64,000 bases of DNA, taken from Nitrospira sp. (lineage in GTDB: Bacteria > Nitrospirota > Nitrospiria > Nitrospirales > Nitrospiraceae). A model generated the notes under the pieces. It worked only from the letters and a program-made list of their open reading frames with translations. It was not told where the DNA came from and made no database searches. The translations under genes and the position numbers were made by a program. The stretch lies in contig CP054184.1 in NCBI GenBank assembly GCA_015709715.1, positions 1,845,001-1,909,000 of the forward strand. The letters run 5' to 3'. Positions 1 to 10,017 of the stretch are shown piece after piece (positions within the stretch are counted from its first letter, which is position 1; every line of letters starts with the position of its first letter).

Positions 1-351
1 TTCTCCATAATGGAGCTTGAAGACCGGCGTTCGTTTGCCCAATCGCGCATACAGCATCAACAGGAGCGCCAAAATGGGCAGCACGAGCGTGCTCAACATG
101 AAGGGCGCTCCAAGGATCGCGCCCAAACCGACTTCCACCTGCTCGCGGCTCGCCCCGAAAAAGATCGCGATGATCGGGATCGACGTCTCCGGCAGGGTTG
201 TCCCCACCGCAGCAAAAATGCTCCCGACCGCGCCCTCTGAAATGTGTAGACGTTTCCCCAGCCACTCGATGCCGTTGGTGAAGAGGTGACAGCCCGCGAG
301 GGTAATGACCACCGAGGCCACGAACATGCCCAGATACAGCAGGATCGTCAC
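1..351 (-). CDS. Sodium/calcium exchanger family protein, N-terminal part
   Basis: Only the first 117 codons are in the window; the gene runs off the left edge. The product is an inner-membrane cation antiporter of the CaCA type. The visible part has two hydrophobic segments and the first alpha-repeat signature, GSIFAAVGTTLPETS, where the conserved acidic residue of the family normally binds cation. The GTG start at 351 overlaps the larC stop as GTGA, which suggests translational coupling; an in-frame ATG at 327 is the alternative start. The family is clear, but the ion (Ca2+, Na+ or K+) cannot be told from this fragment. Confidence 0.75.
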   Translation of the reverse strand, partial: MTILLYLGMFVASVVITLAGCHLFTNGIEWLGKRLHISEGAVGSIFAAVGTTLPETSIPIIAIFFGASREQVEVGLGAILGAPFMLSTLVLPILALLLMLYARLGKRTPVFKLHYGE

Positions 352-1559
352 GGTTTCGAGAATCCCTTTCGCCGCTTGTCCTGCGTCCGGCCGTAGGCCG
401 ACAGGGCCGCTTCCCAGATGTCCTTCACCGGTCGGCCGACCTGCTCGGCCACCCGCCTGCAGTCGTCATATTCCGGCGCGGCCTTGCTGTAACCTGGCCG
501 AACGTCGGCGACCTTGATGCGAATGTCCTGTCCATTCACCTGCACCGCGGCGAACCGGCGGGGCAAGACCCGCCGCTGCATCTCGACGACCCGCACACCG
601 AGCGCGGTGGTCTCGGCGAACAGCACCGCCAGCACCGCCCCCGACTTTTCCCGCGGAACCAGCACGGACAACACGTGGCCGGGGCGGCTCTTCTTCATCA
701 TGACCGGCGTGAGTGTCGCATCCACCGCACCGGCGGCAAACACCCGCTCGAAGACCATCTCGTAACATTGGGGGTTCAGGTCGTCGAGATTGGTCTGCAG
801 TTCGACAATCGTCTCCACCGACCCGACGGTGGAATCGGCGCCCTCGCCGAGAAAGACGCGCAGCACATTCGGCCATTGCGGCGGGTCGGCCGTCCCGGCT
901 CCATACCCCACTTGTTTCATCTGCATGGCCGGAAGCGGACCGAACTCCGCCGCCAGGGTCCGCAGCAAGGCCACACCCGTCGGGGTGGCCAATTCACGCG
1001 CCGGTCCCTGCACATAGACCGGCAGACCGCAGGCGAGCGCCGCCACGGCAGGACCAGGCACGGGCAACGCTCCGTGAGCCGACATCACCGTACCGGAGCC
1101 GACATTGATCGCCGACGCCGTCACCCGTTCCACGGCGAGCAGATGCAGCCCCAACACACTCCCCACGACATCAACGAAGGAATCGATGACACCGACCTCG
1201 TGAAAATGCACCTTCGCCGGTTCGACGCCATGCGCCTTCCCTTCGGCTTCGGCCAAGGTGTCGAATACCGCCAGACTCCGTTCCTTGACCACAGGCGGCA
1301 ATCCGCTCTTGGTCAGAATCCGCCGGATCTGCGCCAGGGTCAGCGGGCGCTCGAAGCCCTTCTCGATGTGCACGTCGACTTTCGTCGCCGTGAGCGCGCC
1401 TCGGTCCACCGTCCGCTGCTGAAGGCGGAATCCGTCGATCCGCAAGTGTGACAACCCGCGAATCAATTCCTTGAGCGGCAAGCCGACATCCACCAACGCT
1501 CCAAGCGTCATGTCGCCGCTGATGCCGGAGAAACAATCGAAATGAAGATGGTGCGTCAT
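348..1559 (-). CDS. larC: LarC, nickel insertion protein for the nickel-pincer cofactor
   Basis: LarC is the CTP-dependent cyclometallase that inserts nickel into the pyridinium-3,5-bisthiocarboxylate mononucleotide made by LarB and LarE. The 403-residue product starts with the family hallmark FDCFSGISGDM (residues 8-18). It has the HFHEVGVIDSFVDVVG block near residue 120 and the C-terminal PEYDDCRR segment near residue 375. The full protein is in one frame, unlike Lactobacillus larC, which needs a programmed frameshift. A GAGGAA ribosome site precedes the ATG. larB lies about 750 bp upstream, with an opposite-strand gene between them. No larE or larA is visible in the window. Confidence 0.92.
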   Translation of the reverse strand: MTHHLHFDCFSGISGDMTLGALVDVGLPLKELIRGLSHLRIDGFRLQQRTVDRGALTATKVDVHIEKGFERPLTLAQIRRILTKSGLPPVVKERSLAVFDTLAEAEGKAHGVEPAKVHFHEVGVIDSFVDVVGSVLGLHLLAVERVTASAINVGSGTVMSAHGALPVPGPAVAALACGLPVYVQGPARELATPTGVALLRTLAAEFGPLPAMQMKQVGYGAGTADPPQWPNVLRVFLGEGADSTVGSVETIVELQTNLDDLNPQCYEMVFERVFAAGAVDATLTPVMMKKSRPGHVLSVLVPREKSGAVLAVLFAETTALGVRVVEMQRRVLPRRFAAVQVNGQDIRIKVADVRPGYSKAAPEYDDCRRVAEQVGRPVKDIWEAALSAYGRTQDKRRKGFSKP

Positions 1560-1723
1560 AACGTTCCTCGCATCACCTGACGCGATGCGAGCGGCATCTT
1601 ACCGGAGCCGCATCCGGACGGCAATCATTGCACTCGTTCGTTGACAGCCCACCGACGCTGTGTTATCCCCACAACAAGATTGAATCCGGATCACTCGGCC
1701 AGCCGGCCGCAGCATAGGGACCC

Positions 1724-2293
1724 ATGCGTGCGCTGACTCCAACTCCCGACGCCACCGCTCTTCCCCGTCCGCAATGGAAAGGATTCGCATGGCTGATGCT
1801 AGTCAGCCTCGTCGTGATCCTGATGGGACAGAGCACGGAGGGCTTCGCGAAACAGAAGGGGAAAGGTGTTCCGCGCCCCGAGCCGGAACTCAAGATCGTC
1901 GAGTTCTCGGCCTCCCCGATCCCCTACCATCCGCAAGAAGGACCGTTTCAGTTCGTCGCGACGGTACAATTGCCCAAGGAAGTCGACGAGCAATGGATGC
2001 TGGAAGTGTCCGCCCTCGTCACCTCGCCCTCGATGACCTCTTTGCGGTTTCTGTCCATCAGGCAACCGGTCAACGAACATGTGCAAACGAACGAGGCTAC
2101 AAACGGTGATGCAGCGCCCAAACGTGTGCGGGTCGACCTCACCTGGGACGGACTGGACCACAACAAGCAGCAGGCTCCGGCCGGTTCTTACGAATATGAG
2201 GTGCGGGTGAAGTTGCTCAGCAATGGGGAAAAGGGGCAGCGCACGCAGATGCTCTCGTGGCCGAAACGCGGCAAGTTTGCCGTGAAGGAGTAA
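1724..2293 (+). CDS. Exported protein with FlgD-like Ig-type segment, unknown function
   Basis: The 189-residue product has one hydrophobic segment at about residues 22-40, fitting a signal sequence or membrane anchor. A basic linker follows, then a soluble domain. Residues 137-170 contain LTWDGLDHN...APAGSYEYEVRV, the WDG-x-D-N-x(n)-GxYxY pattern of FlgD-type Ig-like beta-sandwich domains. It sits on the plus strand between larC and larB, which are both on the minus strand, so it is probably not part of the Lar pathway. The exact role is unknown. Confidence 0.7.
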   Translation: MRALTPTPDATALPRPQWKGFAWLMLVSLVVILMGQSTEGFAKQKGKGVPRPEPELKIVEFSASPIPYHPQEGPFQFVATVQLPKEVDEQWMLEVSALVTSPSMTSLRFLSIRQPVNEHVQTNEATNGDAAPKRVRVDLTWDGLDHNKQQAPAGSYEYEVRVKLLSNGEKGQRTQMLSWPKRGKFAVKE

Positions 2294-2308
2294 CGAGAGC
2301 CCGGCTCC

Positions 2309-3070
2309 TCACTCGACCGTTTCCTCTCCCACCATGTTGATCCGATGGGCCAGGCAACCGGCGCCGAAGCCGTTGTCGATGTTCATCACCCCCACACCGG
2401 CCGCGCAAGAATTCAACATCGTCAACAGCGCTGCCAGCCCCCCGAAATGCGCGCCGTACCCTCGGCTTGTCGGGACGGCAATCACCGGCTGTCGCACGAG
2501 CCCTCCCACGACGCTCGGCAAGACACCGTCCATGCCGGCGGCAACCACCACGACACGCGCGCCATGGAGCCGATCCTGTTGACCCAACAGGCGGTGAAGC
2601 CCTGCCACGCCCACGTCATACAGCGTCTCGGTCCGACTGCCCATGATGTCGGCCGTCACGCGCGCTTCCTCCGCCACGGGAATGTCGGCGGTCCCGGCCG
2701 TGACGATCAGCACCGACCCGCGGCGAGCCAACTTCAGCGGAGCAATCGCCACAACCCGCGCCTCTTCATGGTATTCGGCCCGTTTGCTCATCTTGAGCAG
2801 CGCTCGCGCCACCGGCGGATCGACTCGTGTCGCCAGCAGCGAATTATTTTTCCGCAGGAGCGTCTTGGCAATGGCCACCACTTGACGCTCCGTCTTCCCT
2901 TCGCAAAAGATGACCTCGGGAAACCCCTGCCGGATCGCGCGATGGTGATCGAGCGACGCAAACCCCAAATTTTCGTAGGGCAGGGTGCGGAGCTGACGAA
3001 GCGCATCGGGCACGTCGATGACGCCTCGCTGCACCTGCGTCAGCAATGCCTGCAAGGATGCTTGATTCAT
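2309..3070 (-). CDS. larB: LarB, nickel-pincer cofactor biosynthesis carboxylase
   Basis: LarB carboxylates and hydrolyses nicotinic acid adenine dinucleotide to pyridinium-3,5-biscarboxylic acid mononucleotide, the first step of nickel-pincer cofactor synthesis. The 253-residue product has the LarB N-terminal part (GFASLDHHRAIRQGFPEVIF at residues 36-55). Its C-terminal domain is PurE-like and includes GTADIPVAEEA, DVGVAGLHRLL, VVVAAGMDGVLPSVVGGL and VPTSRGYGAHFGG. The ATG overlaps the gpsA stop as ATGA, so the two genes are co-transcribed and probably translationally coupled. Confidence 0.93.
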   Translation of the reverse strand: MNQASLQALLTQVQRGVIDVPDALRQLRTLPYENLGFASLDHHRAIRQGFPEVIFCEGKTERQVVAIAKTLLRKNNSLLATRVDPPVARALLKMSKRAEYHEEARVVAIAPLKLARRGSVLIVTAGTADIPVAEEARVTADIMGSRTETLYDVGVAGLHRLLGQQDRLHGARVVVVAAGMDGVLPSVVGGLVRQPVIAVPTSRGYGAHFGGLAALLTMLNSCAAGVGVMNIDNGFGAGCLAHRINMVGEETVE

Positions 3071-4092
3071 GACAGGGCTTTCTCTCCCTTGGCCTCTCGC
3101 TCCATGAGGTCGCCCACCGCCTGCCGACAGGATTTCTCGGCAAACAACACCGCGTTGACCTCCTGGACGATCGGCATGTCCACGTCATAGCGCCGAGCCA
3201 AGCCCAGCGCCGCTTTGGCGGTTCGCACTCCTTCGGCCACGGCCTGCATGCTCCCGAGAATGGCCGCAAGCCCTTCACCACGACCTAACCGCATACCCAC
3301 GGAGTGGTTGCGACTGAGCGGCCCGGTGCAGGTCAGGATGAGGTCGCCCACCCCGGACAGGCCGTAAAACGTCCTGGGGTCAGCCCCCATGGCGGCACCC
3401 AACCGAATCATCTCGGCCAACCCTCTGGTGATCAGTGCAGCGCGGGCATTGTGTCCGAGTTCCAAGCCGTCCACCACCCCGGCGGCTAGGGCCATGACGT
3501 TTTTCAGCGCGCCGCCGAGTTGCACACCGATCACATCGTCATCCGCATAGACACGAAAACTCGGTGTCATGAACAACGACTGCGTCTGCTTGACCAAATC
3601 GGCATGCAACCCGGCGAGGGAAATAGCCGTCGGTTGCCCCTGGCTGACTTCGGCGGCGAAACTCGGGCCCGACAGGACCAGCAAGAAGTCCTGCATGGCG
3701 GCCGGCAACTCCTCCTGCATGACCTGGGTCATGAGCTGCAGCGTCTCTTCTTCAATACCTTTGGTCGCACTGATCAAGGGAAGGGGCAAGGAAAGCAGCG
3801 GCGCCATGCGGCGCAAGACTGCTCTTGCCACATGGGAGGGAACGGCAAAAACCAGATAATCCGCCTCGGCCAGCGCCTCCTCCAAGCTGGTGGTGGCGGA
3901 GAGGCCTGACGGCAGCGCCACACCCGGCAGATAACGATGATTTTCCCGCCGCTGCTCGATGGACTCGACCACATCGGATTCATACGCCCAAAGGCATACC
4001 GGCAGCTGCTTCTCGGCCACATGCCGAGCGAGGGCCGTTCCCCAGGCTCCGGCACCGATCACCGAGACACGCTGCTTGGCCGGTTGAGTCAT
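3067..4092 (-). CDS. gpsA: Glycerol-3-phosphate dehydrogenase [NAD(P)+]
   Basis: This cytoplasmic enzyme reduces dihydroxyacetone phosphate to sn-glycerol 3-phosphate for phospholipid synthesis. The 341-residue product is normal length. It has the Rossmann motif VIGAGAWGTALA near residue 11, the catalytic-lysine region GALKNVMALAAGVVDGL near 200, and the substrate-binding GVGDLILTCTGPLSRNHSVG near 255. The ATG at 4092 is the first plausible start. Its stop overlaps larB (ATGA). Confidence 0.95.
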   Translation of the reverse strand: MTQPAKQRVSVIGAGAWGTALARHVAEKQLPVCLWAYESDVVESIEQRRENHRYLPGVALPSGLSATTSLEEALAEADYLVFAVPSHVARAVLRRMAPLLSLPLPLISATKGIEEETLQLMTQVMQEELPAAMQDFLLVLSGPSFAAEVSQGQPTAISLAGLHADLVKQTQSLFMTPSFRVYADDDVIGVQLGGALKNVMALAAGVVDGLELGHNARAALITRGLAEMIRLGAAMGADPRTFYGLSGVGDLILTCTGPLSRNHSVGMRLGRGEGLAAILGSMQAVAEGVRTAKAALGLARRYDVDMPIVQEVNAVLFAEKSCRQAVGDLMEREAKGEKALS

Positions 4093-4209
4093 CGCCGCGG
4101 ATTATAGGAAGGGGCTTCAAAGACTGTCAACGAAGCGGCCCGCTCCCGTGAGACTGGAATTCCTCAGCGCCCCACGCTACCCTGTGGAAGCCATTCGTGA
4201 ACGGAAACG

Positions 4210-4566
4210 ATGAAAGCCTGTCCATCCTGTGGGCGCGCCCTGCCTGAAATCAGCCGGTACTGCACCTTTTGCGGCGCTGGAGTGGCGAACGACGCCCCCG
4301 CCACGCCGCACCCCTCGGCAACGAACCAGAACAAGGAACAGCTCAATCTGCGCATTCTCTATGGGATGGTGACGGTCCTGCTCCTCGAACTCCTCATGCC
4401 GCCTTGGGAAACACCACCGGCACAACCGGCTGCGTTCCTCGGCTTTCATTTCATTCTGTCCCCGCCCCAGGCCGATGCCCTCGTCAGCCGCCTCTTGCTG
4501 ACAATCGAACTCACCACCACAGCCATCGCCGGCCTGTACCTGTCGTTTCTTTTTCGATCGCGCTAG
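4210..4566 (+). CDS. Small zinc-ribbon membrane protein
   Basis: The 118-residue product begins with a zinc ribbon, CPSCGR...YCTFCGAG (cysteines near residues 4, 7, 18 and 21). A Ser/Thr/Asn-rich linker follows, then two hydrophobic segments at about residues 48-64 and 92-115. The architecture matches many small 'zinc-ribbon domain-containing' membrane proteins of unknown function. It is convergent with the arginine dihydrolase gene. A second, larger zinc-ribbon membrane protein lies at 46286. Confidence 0.7.
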   Translation: MKACPSCGRALPEISRYCTFCGAGVANDAPATPHPSATNQNKEQLNLRILYGMVTVLLLELLMPPWETPPAQPAAFLGFHFILSPPQADALVSRLLLTIELTTTAIAGLYLSFLFRSR

Positions 4567-4585
4567 GCGGGATCGGCGGAAGGGG

Positions 4586-5386
4586 TCAATCGAGAGCCAG
4601 GGTCAGGCACTTGGCGGCACCGCCCGATTTGATGAATTCATCCAACGGCACGGGATGGGTGCGATACCCTCGTGCCTCCAGCAGTCGCATGGTGCGAGGG
4701 CAGCCGGATGGAATCACCACCGCGTCGCCGACACAGACGGCATTGCAGGCGAACCGGAGCGCATCCTCCTCCGGGACCTCCACACGGCGATCCTCCGGGA
4801 TCAACCGCGCAATGGCGGCGCGGCCATAGGAGTCGAAGGCCGCTGGGTAATAGAGGAGTTCCCCGCCGCTCAGCGGGCAGAAGCAGGTATCCAGGTGATA
4901 GAACCGGCCGTCGATCAACTCGAGCGGAATGATCTCACGCTGGAAGATCTCGCTCAGCCGTGGAAAGGCTCGAATGTCCGATCGCTGCCGGTACCCGCCG
5001 AACCAGGTCTCTGGAAATCCGAGGAGATCGCCGGCTCCTTCGAAATACAAGTCCTGGTCGAACGGCACCACTTCATACCCGTGCTCGTGAAACCACTGAG
5101 CGAAATACTTCTCCTCCCGTTGTCGCTCCGGATGGCGGAAGCGGCTCACTAACGCGCGCCGGCCGGCCACCACCCCGGCGTTGGCGGTGAACACCAAGTC
5201 CGGCAACCCTCGGACCGGCTCCATCCGCTCAAGTTTCGCGCCGACATCCCGCTCCAAGACCTGCATCAACTCCTGCCACTGGGTGACGGCACGCGCCGGA
5301 TCCACAGCATTCGCCCGCCGCATCCAGGGATTGATTTCATAATCGATCTGAAAATAGTCCGGAGGACAGACCAACAAACGACTCAT
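4586..5386 (-). CDS. Arginine dihydrolase-type amidinotransferase-fold enzyme (AgrE/ArgZ N-domain-like)
   Basis: The 266-residue guanidino-group-modifying enzyme has the arginine deiminase / DDAH fold. Visible residues are N19, FTANAG with N69, FEGAGD at 115-120, YHLD with H164, and the C-terminal catalytic cysteine C260 in SGGAAKC. As I recall, this layout (Asn near 70, His near 168, Cys near 264) is that of cyanobacterial ArgZ/AgrE, which converts arginine to ornithine, CO2 and two ammonia. The ATG at 5386 overlaps the stop of the upstream LOR/SDH gene as ATGA. Dimethylarginine dimethylaminohydrolase is the main alternative. The partner gene favours arginine dihydrolase. Confidence 0.75.
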   Translation of the reverse strand: MSRLLVCPPDYFQIDYEINPWMRRANAVDPARAVTQWQELMQVLERDVGAKLERMEPVRGLPDLVFTANAGVVAGRRALVSRFRHPERQREEKYFAQWFHEHGYEVVPFDQDLYFEGAGDLLGFPETWFGGYRQRSDIRAFPRLSEIFQREIIPLELIDGRFYHLDTCFCPLSGGELLYYPAAFDSYGRAAIARLIPEDRRVEVPEEDALRFACNAVCVGDAVVIPSGCPRTMRLLEARGYRTHPVPLDEFIKSGGAAKCLTLALD

Positions 5387-6627
5387 GGGCGCCACCCGAG
5401 TGCGCGGGCCAACTCCGACAGAAATGAGGCGGCGTCCATGACCAGCCCCACGGCTTGGAAACTGCCGCGATCAGCCAGCTTCGTCGGCACCGCTGGATTC
5501 ACATCGACACAGACGGTCGGGATCGTCGCCGGCAATAAATTGCCGGTGGCAATGGAGTGGAGCGTGGAGGCCACCAAAAGCGCAAGGCCGACGCCGGGAA
5601 TGTGTGCGCGCATGGCCTGCTGGGCCGCCATCGAGTCGGTCAGCACGCCCGGGAGCGGGCCGTCGTCTCGGATAGTTCCCGCCATCACCAGGGTGACATG
5701 TTGCCGCACACAGGCCGCCATGATGCCGTCCCGAACCAGCCCAGAACACACAGCCTCTTCGATGCTGCCCAACGCCCGCACCCGATTGATGGTGCGCAAG
5801 TGGTGCTCATGGCCATGGGGCACCGACCGCCCAGCCGACAATTCGTACCCGAGTGACGTGCCGTACAGAGCCGCTTCCATGTCATGGGCAGCTAACGCAT
5901 TCCCGCAGAACAACACCTGCACATACCCTTCCTCAACCAACCAGGCCAACGCCTCCCGCCCTCCGGCATGGATGATGGCCGGGCCTCCGGCGAAGAGAAT
6001 CTTCGCATCGGCCTCGCCCGCCCTGTGACGCGCACGCAGACGCTGCATGCGGGCGGCGATATCGGCGAGGACCGGCTGATGTGGGCGCTCCGACGACACG
6101 ACGGATTCCATGAACCCAAACACATCACGTTCCGTCGGGCGGGCTAGGGGCGTCACCCTGATGCCGTCCCGCCCGATCACGATCAAATCTCCTTCCTTCA
6201 CCGCGGCCATCGGTACCGTCCTCGCGCGGGCCTTGGCCGGATCCACGCAGATCCCCACATCCATTTCGATGCCCTCGACCGTCACCCATTCGCCGTCCAG
6301 GCGAATCTCCGTGGACAAGTGGGTCGTCGCGTAAAACTGCTCGGGGAACACGCCGGCGGCCGGAGCCGGTTCAAACCGGCAATCCTCTTCCCGCTCCACG
6401 GTAGCCCCATGCGGCTGAATCGCTCGAAGGATTTCGGCCAATTGTCGGCCGGAGGAGGCACGAACGACGATTCGCGCGTGAGAGGGCGCATCCCTCGTCG
6501 CTCCGATGCGCACATCCTGCAGGTCGAAGGTGCCGCCCATCATCAAAATGGTATCCAGCACCTTCGCCAGGATCAGCGAGTCGATGATGTGGCCCTGCAG
6601 CAACACGGTTTCTTCCGGCGCCGTCAT
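5383..6627 (-). CDS. LOR/SDH-type (TIGR00300) ornithine cyclodeaminase-like protein
   Basis: The 414-residue product resembles the TIGR00300 / LOR-SDH family. In archaea and as the C-terminal part of cyanobacterial AgrE, this family deaminates ornithine to proline using NAD. An N-terminal LOR domain (about residues 1-110) is followed by a Rossmann-like part with ILFAGGPAIIHAGG, VLFCGNALAAHD and a conserved GHEHHLRTINRVRALGSIEE-type region. The ATG at 6627 is chosen because AGGAGGAG lies 6 nt upstream; a longer reading frame to 6663 lacks such a site. Its stop overlaps the dihydrolase start (ATGA). Together the pair could convert arginine to proline. Confidence 0.78.
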   Translation of the reverse strand: MTAPEETVLLQGHIIDSLILAKVLDTILMMGGTFDLQDVRIGATRDAPSHARIVVRASSGRQLAEILRAIQPHGATVEREEDCRFEPAPAAGVFPEQFYATTHLSTEIRLDGEWVTVEGIEMDVGICVDPAKARARTVPMAAVKEGDLIVIGRDGIRVTPLARPTERDVFGFMESVVSSERPHQPVLADIAARMQRLRARHRAGEADAKILFAGGPAIIHAGGREALAWLVEEGYVQVLFCGNALAAHDMEAALYGTSLGYELSAGRSVPHGHEHHLRTINRVRALGSIEEAVCSGLVRDGIMAACVRQHVTLVMAGTIRDDGPLPGVLTDSMAAQQAMRAHIPGVGLALLVASTLHSIATGNLLPATIPTVCVDVNPAVPTKLADRGSFQAVGLVMDAASFLSELARALGWRP

Positions 6628-6695
6628 CGGCAGCTCCTCCTGTATATGTGGTGGTCTTGCCAAATTTTACCATGCGCCAGGCGACGAGCAGGCGG

Positions 6696-7748
6696 TCACG
6701 CAGCCGTTTTGATGATCTCCCGCAGCACGCTCGTCGCGTAGGAGCCGGGAGGCAGCCAGAAGGAGAGGGTGAGGGCGGAGCCTTCGAGGGACCAATTCAG
6801 GTCATTGAGACGCACCCGAAGCGCCCGGCGTTCCCCGCGGAATCCGCACTCGGCGCCCGCCTTCGATAGTGCCTCGGGCGTGGTGCCCAACTCGGCCACG
6901 ACCGACCGTTCGAGCTCGCCGGGTGTTCCCGTCGACCAAGGCGCACGCGATCCGAAGAGCGGTCCCGTGGGGCTGATCTCGAATCGATCGACGCGAGGCT
7001 GTTCCACCTCGGGCAGCTCGACGACAAAACAGGCGCCATTGTCCGTCTTCATGGCCCAGTCTCCGGCGAAAACCCGGTCGAGGCTGTCGATTCGCTTCGC
7101 CACGATCCGGTTGAACAGATGCGACTGGTAGGCATTCATGAACCAGAGTCGCTTGGCGCGGCTCATCTTGTTTCGGCGGGCGGCGTCCCGCAGCAACTCA
7201 GCCCCAACCGCAAAATTATTTCCCGCCCGTCCCTGACGCTGCGGCCCGAAATAATTCGGCACCCCTCGGCGTTGCAGCTGCTCGAAGATCTGCTCTACAT
7301 CGGCATCACATCCCTCGCGAACGTCCCGCACCACCAGACGAAACTGATTCCCGGCATGGTGCCCCTTGCGTAAGCGGTTGCGGTGCCGGCCCAGGACTTC
7401 CACCTTCAGGAGACGGTCGTCGGTGGCTAAGGCTGCCACCGTCTCCGGCTTCACTCCCTGCAGCGACACCATTTGAGTCGTGACCGCCTGGGCATCTTTC
7501 AGCCCGGCAATTCCGATGGACATCGCCTTGACGTGAAGGTGGGACGACAACCTCAACACCAGATCCGGCGTGGAAAGGCCGCGTTTCGTCACGCGGATAT
7601 AGAGGTGCTCCCCTTCGCCGCAGGGCAGGTAGAGGGGCCGTTCTTCGACTTGAAAATCTTCCGGCGAGCTGCGAATGCGTCCTCCGAGCGCCGGAACTGC
7701 TGCGGTCAGATAGGGTAACGTCTCATCGAGTGCGGAGGAGGTGGTCAT
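6696..7748 (-). CDS. truD: tRNA pseudouridine(13) synthase TruD
   Basis: TruD makes pseudouridine at position 13 of tRNA-Glu and others. The 350-residue product shows the catalytic-aspartate motif IAGLKDAQAVTTQ near residues 79-91, the HAGNQF block, and NYFGPQRQGR. The reading frame is open for another 163 codons upstream, but homology begins at the ATG at 7748 (MTTSSALDE), so the short form is annotated. It is divergent from the gene at 7869. The shared upstream region carries a palindromic promoter element. Confidence 0.93.
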   Translation of the reverse strand: MTTSSALDETLPYLTAAVPALGGRIRSSPEDFQVEERPLYLPCGEGEHLYIRVTKRGLSTPDLVLRLSSHLHVKAMSIGIAGLKDAQAVTTQMVSLQGVKPETVAALATDDRLLKVEVLGRHRNRLRKGHHAGNQFRLVVRDVREGCDADVEQIFEQLQRRGVPNYFGPQRQGRAGNNFAVGAELLRDAARRNKMSRAKRLWFMNAYQSHLFNRIVAKRIDSLDRVFAGDWAMKTDNGACFVVELPEVEQPRVDRFEISPTGPLFGSRAPWSTGTPGELERSVVAELGTTPEALSKAGAECGFRGERRALRVRLNDLNWSLEGSALTLSFWLPPGSYATSVLREIIKTAA

Positions 7749-7792
7749 ACGGTGTCCTTCTTCTCGCTTGCTCCAATTTGAGGCAATACAGT

Positions 7793-7820
7793 GGGTCCCA
7801 GCGGGACCCCATGTTATACT
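7793..7820 (+). promoter_or_regulatory. Perfect palindrome next to a TATACT -10 box
   Basis: GGGTCCC-AGC-GGGACCC (7793-7809) is a perfect 7-bp inverted repeat. Six bases later comes TATACT (7815-7820), a good -10 box for the plus-strand gene at 7869. The palindrome fills the -35/spacer region, as expected for a repressor or activator operator. There is no T-run, so it is not a terminator. It also lies upstream of the divergent truD. Confidence 0.5.
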
Positions 7821-7868
7821 CCGGTCGAGTTGTACCACGCCTCCGCGTCCGTTCCCGAAAGAACTCAA

Positions 7869-8528
7869 ATGCCCTTCCCGATTACGCACATCACCCTTGG
7901 GGCCTGGATATTCTGTTGGACTCTCGCGCCGGGCCTCGTCCCATCGGCCCTGACGGCAACCAGAATGAACGGGGTGGATGTCTTCGCCCGGTTCACTCAG
8001 CATATCGAGCGGCAAACTGAGATCGACAAACGGGCCTTTGCGGTCGCCAGCAAATGCATGACCTGGTTCTACAAGCAGCTGCGGGAACGGCCGGCTCCGC
8101 CGGCGATGCAACGCATCGCTTGGAGCGATGCTCCCATCATTCACGCCGCGGACCAACCACAGGACGAGTCCGCCGAATGTCGCGCCCTCTATCCCGGCGG
8201 CCTCGAAGCCGTGCGTACCGACTTTCAGCGGACGCAATCGTTCCTCTCCCTCTCGCTCACGTTTTATGAGTTCGCCCTGGTCGGGGACGGAGACGACAAT
8301 TCTCTCTACAGCACTCGTGAGCTTCAGGATCTATTGTTGGCCCTGAGCCTGTCCGTCGAACCCTCGCTGGATTCCGAGACTCACCTTCGGCTGCTCACCT
8401 CGCGATTCGACATGCTGCACGAGGCGCGCGGCATGGAAGCGCTGATGGCCGGAATGAACAAGCTGTATGACCAGGGCTATCGCGTCACTCCCGCGGACAA
8501 GGCGCATCTCAACCGAGTGATGGAATGA
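7869..8528 (+). CDS. Conserved protein of unknown function, upstream of metallophosphoesterase
   Basis: The 219-residue product has a hydrophobic N-terminus (about residues 3-25, ITHITLGAWIFCWTLAPGLV) fitting a membrane anchor or signal. A mainly helical soluble part follows. I do not recognise a domain. The ATG at 7869 is chosen because the TATACT promoter box at 7815-7820 lies inside a longer upstream reading frame. Its stop overlaps the next start (ATGA), so it is an operon partner of the metallophosphoesterase. Confidence 0.6.
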   Translation: MPFPITHITLGAWIFCWTLAPGLVPSALTATRMNGVDVFARFTQHIERQTEIDKRAFAVASKCMTWFYKQLRERPAPPAMQRIAWSDAPIIHAADQPQDESAECRALYPGGLEAVRTDFQRTQSFLSLSLTFYEFALVGDGDDNSLYSTRELQDLLLALSLSVEPSLDSETHLRLLTSRFDMLHEARGMEALMAGMNKLYDQGYRVTPADKAHLNRVME

Positions 8529-9358
8529 TCGCTCGCCTGATGCGCTGGCAGGAACTGGGACGGGTCTGGATCGGCCACTGGCTCAGCCGCCCCTTTCATC
8601 AGCTCTTCAACCTCATCCCGGGCCTGGAGTTGGGACTCGCCGAAGCGGCGATCACCTCGCTGCCCCTCAGCCACGCCCCGCTGGCCGGTCGGCGTGCGGT
8701 TCACCTCAGCGACCTGCACCTGGATCGGTACCGTCCCAGGCACCACGCCCTCGTCCGGACGGTGGAGGACCTTGGGCCGGACTGGATTTTCATCACCGGT
8801 GATCTCCTCAACGTCCGTGACGGCTTGCCGCACATGGTCCGCTTCCTCTCGGAGCTCCGCCGCCTGGCCCCCGTCTTCGTCACGCTCGGCAATCACGACC
8901 ACTATAGCGGATTGCGTGTGGATGAATTCGCCGAACAGCTCGACCGCATCAAAGTGACGCTCCTGGTCAACCAGGTCACCTTCGTCCCCCTGGAAGACGG
9001 AGAACTCGCCATCGTCGGCCTCGACGATCCTTCCCTCCATCGGGCAGACCTGCGCTGCATTCCGTCATACCGACCCGGACGATTCACGCTCCTGCTGGCC
9101 CATGCGCCCAACATCCTGGAGCAGCTTGAATCACAGCATCACATCGATCTGGGCCTCTGCGGCCATAGCCATGCGGGCCAATGGCGTATTCCGTTCATCC
9201 CGACCTTTTGGCTGCCGCCCGGCTGCCACGGACGCACGAACGGCCTCTACCGGAACGGTGCCCACCGACTCTATGTCAACCGAGGCATCGGCTGGTCGGT
9301 GTTTCCCGTTCGACTCAACTGCTCGCCCGAAATCGTCGTCCTGGACTGGTCATCCTGA
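8525..9358 (+). CDS. Metallophosphoesterase (YkuE/CpdA-type calcineurin-like)
   Basis: The 277-residue binuclear-metal phosphoesterase shows every core motif of the family: HLSDLHLDRY (D-x-H), FITGDLLN (GD), TLGNHDHYSG (GNHD), LLAHAPN (H) and GLCGHSHAGQ (GHxH). An amphipathic N-terminal stretch precedes the domain, as in YkuE-type membrane-associated enzymes. The substrate is not predictable; lipid diphosphates or nucleotides are typical of relatives. It is translationally coupled to the preceding unknown gene by ATGA. Confidence 0.88.
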   Translation: MIARLMRWQELGRVWIGHWLSRPFHQLFNLIPGLELGLAEAAITSLPLSHAPLAGRRAVHLSDLHLDRYRPRHHALVRTVEDLGPDWIFITGDLLNVRDGLPHMVRFLSELRRLAPVFVTLGNHDHYSGLRVDEFAEQLDRIKVTLLVNQVTFVPLEDGELAIVGLDDPSLHRADLRCIPSYRPGRFTLLLAHAPNILEQLESQHHIDLGLCGHSHAGQWRIPFIPTFWLPPGCHGRTNGLYRNGAHRLYVNRGIGWSVFPVRLNCSPEIVVLDWSS

Positions 9359-9372
9359 CGCCTCGGTCTTCA

Positions 9373-10017
9373 TCACGTGATTCGTTCCAGTGCCTCCCGG
9401 GCTCGGCTTCGCACCGTTTGATCCCAATCTTCCTTGCTGGCGTACAGCAACTTCTCCTTCGCGGCGGAGGCTCGAAGCCGACCGAGGCCGAGCGCGGCGC
9501 TGGCCCGCACATAGGCATGGTCGTCTTCCAGCGCCTTCAGCAGAGGCGGCACGACCGATTCGTCTCCGATGACGCCCAAATGGCTCGCCGCCATCCCACG
9601 CACACGGTGCTGCTTGTCTCCCAAGGCACGCTTCAGCGTCGTCAAGAACAATTCCTGGAGCCGGGGGGCAATGGTTTCCAGCCCGGCACGCTGATAGTCG
9701 TTCACTTCGATCAGCGCGAAGGCCACCTCGAGACGTTTATCGTGTGACGATTGGTTCTCGAACAGGGTGATCAACCGCGCTCGCTGCGCAACCCGTCGAC
9801 GCCGCTGCTGAATCTTTCGCACGATGATCCAGGCGGCCACCGCAACGGCACAAACCAGAGCCGCGATAGGAATGGCCTGATCGATCACCACATCCTGCAC
9901 CTCCGGCGAGAGGCGCTTCCAGATCCAGACGCCGGAGATCACCAGGCCCAGCAAGAGAAAGATAGCGGTCAGATTGGCATGGCCCGATTGAGCGTGGCGC
10001 GGCATGGCAGGCGCCAT
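9373..10017 (-). CDS. Membrane-anchored HEAT-repeat protein
   Basis: The 214-residue product has two N-terminal hydrophobic segments (about 15-33 and 47-67) and a basic stop-transfer stretch (IQQRRRR). A helical C-terminal half follows with HEAT/PBS-lyase-like repeats, for example HRVRGMAASHLGVIGDESVV and AYVRASAALGLGRLRA. Such repeats normally form protein-binding scaffolds. It is convergent with the metallophosphoesterase gene. The start could be the Met at codon 5 (10005). Confidence 0.72.
   Translation of the reverse strand: MAPAMPRHAQSGHANLTAIFLLLGLVISGVWIWKRLSPEVQDVVIDQAIPIAALVCAVAVAAWIIVRKIQQRRRRVAQRARLITLFENQSSHDKRLEVAFALIEVNDYQRAGLETIAPRLQELFLTTLKRALGDKQHRVRGMAASHLGVIGDESVVPPLLKALEDDHAYVRASAALGLGRLRASAAKEKLLYASKEDWDQTVRSRAREALERIT

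Follow-up and report, generated by a model that had tools for sequence, protein, structure and literature searches.

A split ornithine cyclodeaminase-arginine dihydrolase gene pair in Nitrospira, its probable role in arginine breakdown and a candidate link to the nickel-pincer nucleotide

Our analysis suggests that two overlapping genes on a Nitrospira chromosome quite probably form a translationally coupled catabolic unit, which would take arginine through ornithine to proline with release of ammonia. The pair can be seen as a known cyanobacterial enzyme divided between two genes, with an ordinary pathway in a less known genetic arrangement, and it points to a likely ammonia-yielding use of arginine for Nitrospira-type nitrifiers.

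The gene pair and the identity of its products

The window, the whole 64-kb stretch of DNA that we analyzed, is C1:1845001-1909000 of a closed, 4.16-Mb source genome, and a close named relative among the sampled loci is Candidatus Nitrospira defluvii (L044). Two frames are open on its minus strand exactly at the coordinates in Table 1, an ornithine cyclodeaminase (OCD) and an ArgZ-like arginine dihydrolase (ADH), and an AGGAGG motif lies at 6636-6641, upstream of the OCD start ATG at 6627. Of about 75 OCD-ADH pairs sampled, 44 share the 4-nt overlap between the genes, which is therefore a conserved coupling rather than a chance arrangement. A preliminary description of this DNA had taken the genes to be adjacent, translationally coupled and in the opposite order from the cyanobacterial AgrE/ArgZ fusion, and all of this holds, as OCD comes first and ADH second. 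The bifunctional AgrE/ArgZ model NF052231 has both domains in a single chain, where this DNA has two frames joined by an ATGA overlap, and no OCD-ADH fusion was present among 80 loci; a reverse-order natural fusion that a script suggested in L087 was rejected because translation revealed a stop between the frames. No Rfam elements were detected in positions 1-10000 of the window.

Table 1. Features of the OCD-ADH locus and its neighborhood (window coordinates)
Feature	Position	Strand	Basis
larC (LarC1+LarC2), nickel insertion for pincer cofactor	348..1559	-	TIGR00299 200 bits and NF052512 135.7 bits, both over cut-off
Small protein (X189) between larC and larB	1724..2293	+	
larB, nickel-pincer nucleotide biosynthesis	2309..3070	-	NF033503 289.7 bits, cut-off 175
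gpsA, glycerol-3-phosphate dehydrogenase, between the pair and larB	3067..4092	-	NF000942 435.7 bits; synteny
Promoter-like TTGACA-18-TATAAT before gpsA	4101..4130	-	12/12 consensus match
Zinc-ribbon-like small protein, convergent with ADH gene, separating ADH from gpsA-larB	4210..4566	+	Synteny; no NCBIfam match
ArgZ-like arginine dihydrolase (ADH), P0001, 266 aa	4586..5386	-	PDB matches, conserved residues, tree
ATGA stop/start overlap, 4 nt, OCD stop and ADH start	5383..5386	-	Sequence; overlap conserved in sampled pairs
Ornithine cyclodeaminase (OCD), stand-alone LOR/SDH (TIGR00300), P0002, 414 aa	5383..6627	-	TIGR00300, Pfam, PDB matches

Family and PDB matches bear out the enzyme identities proposed earlier for both genes. 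OCD matches TIGR00300 over residues 8-409 with 462 bits (curated cut-off, 410.8) and carries the Pfam domains Saccharop_dh_N, ArgZ-like_C_1st, and ArgZ-like_C_2nd, with an E value of 4e-95 for the ArgZ-like C-terminal domain. It is about 40-44% identical to the AgrE/ArgZ C-domain and to archaeal MMP1218 (PDB 3c2q; 44%), which is also a stand-alone TIGR00300 protein. PMC10809761, citing Burnat 2019, reports that MMP1218 makes proline from ornithine in methanogens, so that a stand-alone member of the OCD family is active; its role there differs in being proline synthesis, and PMC10809761 mentions no dihydrolase partner. Searches for mobile or variant cyclodeaminases gave no match in phage records, a sole plasmid match that proved to be an Acetoanaerobium replicon of chromosome size, and a frame in L152, suspected to be an NF052526 variant, that looks deoxyhypusine-synthase-like by eye.

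The best PDB matches of ADH are the ArgZ/AgrE N-domains (E values of 5e-80 to 9e-74), with 48% identity to its ArgZ/AgrE counterpart. Every tested catalytic residue is kept (N19, N69, E116, D120, H164, and C260), and N19, N69, H164, and C260 correspond by alignment position to AgrE residues 22, 71, 168, and 264. ADH thus has the ArgZ-type Asn71, His168, and Cys264 together with the surrounding acidic residues, a set that is not exclusive to ArgZ. Among the ArgZ chains aligned, 6juz has Ser for the Asn and 6jv1 has Ser for the Cys, and PDB entry 6lrh is titled as a C264A mutant.

It might be argued that the dihydrolase is instead a dimethylargininase (DDAH) or a citrulline-producing deiminase, since Pfam places it in DDAH_eukar, over the cut-off, and it matches the Mtb-type dimethylargininase model NF045659 at 243 bits (below the cut-off of 300). 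Moreover, the letters at N19, N69, H164, and C260 are common to ADH and the annotated actinobacterial (Mtb-type) dimethylargininases, so the active-site residues do not decide its substrate, and the alignment with ArgZ that the preliminary description put forward as a check gives agreement at all four positions but fails to separate ArgZ from Mtb-type "DDAH." The NCBIfam arginine dihydrolase model NF052232 has a cut-off of 450 bits, reached neither by ADH (296 bits) nor by any of 128 Nitrospirota genomes, and for this reason we do not claim membership in that model. We nevertheless regard a DDAH or deiminase as highly improbable, because the nearest solved relatives by far are ArgZ and AgrE, because ornithine is the substrate of the partner gene's enzyme, and because the classical DDAH of Sinorhizobium has Asp in the N69 column, where ADH and ArgZ have Asn. 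In our tree, the annotated actinobacterial DDAHs form their own branch with support of 100/100, with ADH outside it, so the grouping of the first enzyme with DDAH, which had been named as grounds for rejecting an arginine dihydrolase, did not occur; the cyanobacterial fused domains are interspersed with split ADHs in an unresolved comb. The actinobacterial proteins share the superfamily and about 40% identity with ADH, but the three sampled all lack an adjoining cyclodeaminase. Even in that group, Rv2323c is required by Mycobacterium tuberculosis for growth on arginine (PMC4569260), and the actinobacterial branch may therefore consist of dihydrolases as well.

The predicted route from arginine to proline

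We infer both enzyme activities and the direction of flow. Hydrolysis of arginine by the dihydrolase would yield ornithine together with CO2 and two molecules of ammonia. The cyclodeaminase would then turn ornithine into proline by internal hydride transfer, releasing one further ammonia, and PutA, encoded elsewhere in the genome, would oxidize the proline to glutamate. The cyanobacterial bifunctional AgrE/ArgZ (PDB 6lrf, 6lrg, 6lrh, and 6juy) has both domains, the catalytic residues, and the presumed reactions in common with the Nitrospira proteins, and its cyclodeaminase part is about 40% identical to OCD. In contrast to AgrE/ArgZ, the Nitrospira pair consists of two separate, untethered polypeptides, and passage of substrate between their sites would need an assembled complex.

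A catabolic role is supported by loci from other phyla in which PutA stands beside the pair, as PutA divergently adjoins OCD in six of them (L078, L080, L094, L097, L098, and L100). These six come from Omnitrophota, a Deltaproteobacteria metagenome-assembled genome (MAG), and a Thermodesulfovibrionia MAG. The pair could alternatively make proline chiefly for biosynthesis, as its archaeal stand-alone relative is reported to do, but the source genome encodes ProB and two ProC proteins in addition to PutA, so that proline synthesis is probably independent of the OCD-ADH pair, and together with the position of PutA elsewhere this leaves us little inclined to accept a mainly biosynthetic function. 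We also consider it unlikely that the dihydrolase chiefly recycles ornithine into arginine synthesis with the cyclodeaminase as a side branch, the ornithine-ammonia cycle that has been described for Synechocystis ArgZ (PMC8262935), as OCD and ADH are strictly coupled and are lost jointly, and Flores argues that the cycle is itself a side activity. Gene content and gene neighborhood thus favor the arginine-ornithine-proline route that was originally suggested. The accompanying idea of nitrogen storage finds no support, as a survey detected cphA in no nitrite-oxidizer genome, nor in one comammox Nitrospira (PMC10687191).

The split pair is also not specific to nitrifiers, since the OCD-ADH order recurs across Nitrospirota and in loci of Planctomycetota, Omnitrophota, Myxococcota, and Thermodesulfovibrionia. 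Both genes are co-present in all 40 OCD-positive genomes among the 128 Nitrospirota genomes sampled. From two reduced Nitrospira genomes, G123 and G127 (loci L158 and L159), exactly this pair is missing as a unit, with the lar cluster intact and synteny otherwise preserved; in these loci the TruD-to-zinc-ribbon interval (L158:7040-8568 and L159:6931-8345) is without the pair and has intact flanks. Dihydrolase-like genes without a cyclodeaminase occur in L153, L154, L155, and L156 (G095, G008, G017, and G025), with unrelated neighbors. Around cyclodeaminases without a dihydrolase, the Pfam assignments of 48 neighboring frames showed no metabolic family that recurs.

Neighboring lar genes and the hydride carrier of the cyclodeaminase

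Both larB and larC are found no more than 5 kb from the pair and larE is located elsewhere in the genome (C1:2899330-2900094), so that the LarB, LarC, and LarE proteins of a nickel-pincer system are all encoded, while the client LarA (PF09861) is absent from the source genome (G000). The locus resembles the lar operon of the lactate racemase system in its larB and larC genes but differs in lacking LarA, and the client is presumed to come from another family. The order TruD-OCD-ADH-zinc ribbon (opposite strand)-GpsA-LarB-X189 (opposite strand)-LarC is kept from N. defluvii to N. moscoviensis, and outside the Nitrospiraceae we found no linkage of larB or larE to the pair and one distant larC only (L118). 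In nearly every long Nitrospira locus, the genes of the two small plus-strand proteins, neither of which has an NCBIfam match, hold the same positions, one between larC and larB and the other between gpsA and ADH, and run counter to these genes. Just past the left edge of the window, a gene for a protein that looks membrane-exchanger-like by eye (L003:9338-10351, minus strand) shares 4 nt with the end of larC.

An overlap of 4 nt also joins gpsA and larB; we regard gpsA as a conserved neighbor and do not claim a functional link to the pair. A gap of 9 nt separates the end of the promoter-like site from the gpsA start codon, so that a transcript starting from this site would have little or no leader. 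We treat the site as a lead only, as a consensus match is not proof and shuffled sequences average 0.6 sites under a looser rule. Given this site and the intervening opposite-strand genes, OCD-ADH and the lar genes do not make up a single operon, and gpsA-larB is probably transcribed apart from the pair.

With regard to the hydride carrier of OCD, we lean toward the nickel-pincer nucleotide produced by LarB, LarE, and LarC, for which the genomic neighborhood is weak evidence, given the separate promoter-like site, the intervening genes, the lar cluster kept without the pair, and the AgrE structure with NAD+. Better evidence comes from three genomes (G045, G048, and G055) that keep OCD, LarB, and LarE and have neither LarA nor a protein of the GSU2086 family, so that OCD is the sole recognized client in all three; G055 is a one-contig genome. 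LarB is over the cut-off in 40/40 OCD-positive Nitrospirota genomes, 29 of which are without LarA (co-occurrence Fisher p of 1e-4, with related genomes treated as independent). Among OCD-positive genomes of other taxa, LarB is present in 45/48 and LarA in 33/48, and in those 33 LarA by itself might account for LarB; LarB is also encoded in 13 of the 15 genomes that lack LarA. Among the papers searched, none joins the nickel-pincer nucleotide and ornithine cyclodeaminase, but a role for OCD as a client would fit a gap noted in the literature, as about 15% of genomes, including many cyanobacteria, have larBCE without larA, and the 2024 paper reporting this left open what uses the cofactor in such genomes, the cyanobacterial ones included (PMC11796402).

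The same pathway may, however, run with NAD+ as the carrier, with larB and larC as neighbors by inherited synteny that serve, for example, a GSU2086-family protein, and we consider this possible, if doubtful. PDB entry 6lrg is titled as AgrE with ornithine and NAD+, the fold is like that of NAD-dependent deoxyhypusine synthase (as seen with the GSU2086 model), lar genes remain without the pair in L158 and L159, and a GSU2086-family protein is encoded in the source genome. Against this reading stand the present NCBIfam name of TIGR00300, in which the curators call it "nickel-pincer nucleotide-dependent," the three genomes that retain LarB and LarE and in which no client other than OCD is recognized, and the finding that none of the 40 OCD-positive Nitrospirota genomes is without LarB. 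NAD binding, which the preliminary description had taken as a test of the LOR/SDH protein, is thus an unsafe test, since the family is named for the nickel-pincer nucleotide although AgrE was solved with NAD+.

A second candidate client

The GSU2086-family (NF052581) protein of the source genome (C1:2375703-2376617; L120:4980-5930, minus strand) scores 448.8 bits, and the family is over the cut-off in 102 of the 128 Nitrospirota genomes. At least one of OCD, GSU2086, or LarA is present in 104/105 LarB-positive genomes, with two fragmentary GSU2086 matches counted as present, and in 4/23 LarB-negative genomes, the remaining 19 having none of the three; the four exceptions carry LarE and are fragmented assemblies, and every genome, related or not, is counted as independent. 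This association of the three families with larB may be the better lead. The GSU2086 profile matches OCD over the conserved NGA/GNA-HD-E stretch (hhalign, E value of 6e-5), and a confident predicted model of the protein (pLDDT of 88.6) matches the AgrE/ArgZ C-domains and deoxyhypusine synthase with Z scores of about 20, as also found with Foldseek. In Geobacter, the GSU2086 gene is flanked by hldE and gmhA and has been listed among genes that affect growth on electrodes (PMC5585712).

The GSU2086 family is thus a second candidate nickel-pincer client, as a lead rather than a demonstration, and we tentatively speculate that the deoxyhypusine-synthase-like fold could be a second nickel-pincer scaffold, with OCD and GSU2086 both as clients that would jointly explain cofactor-making genomes without LarA. 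A few genomes have either OCD alone (G055) or the GSU2086 family alone as a recognized candidate client, which makes the cofactor question directly testable.
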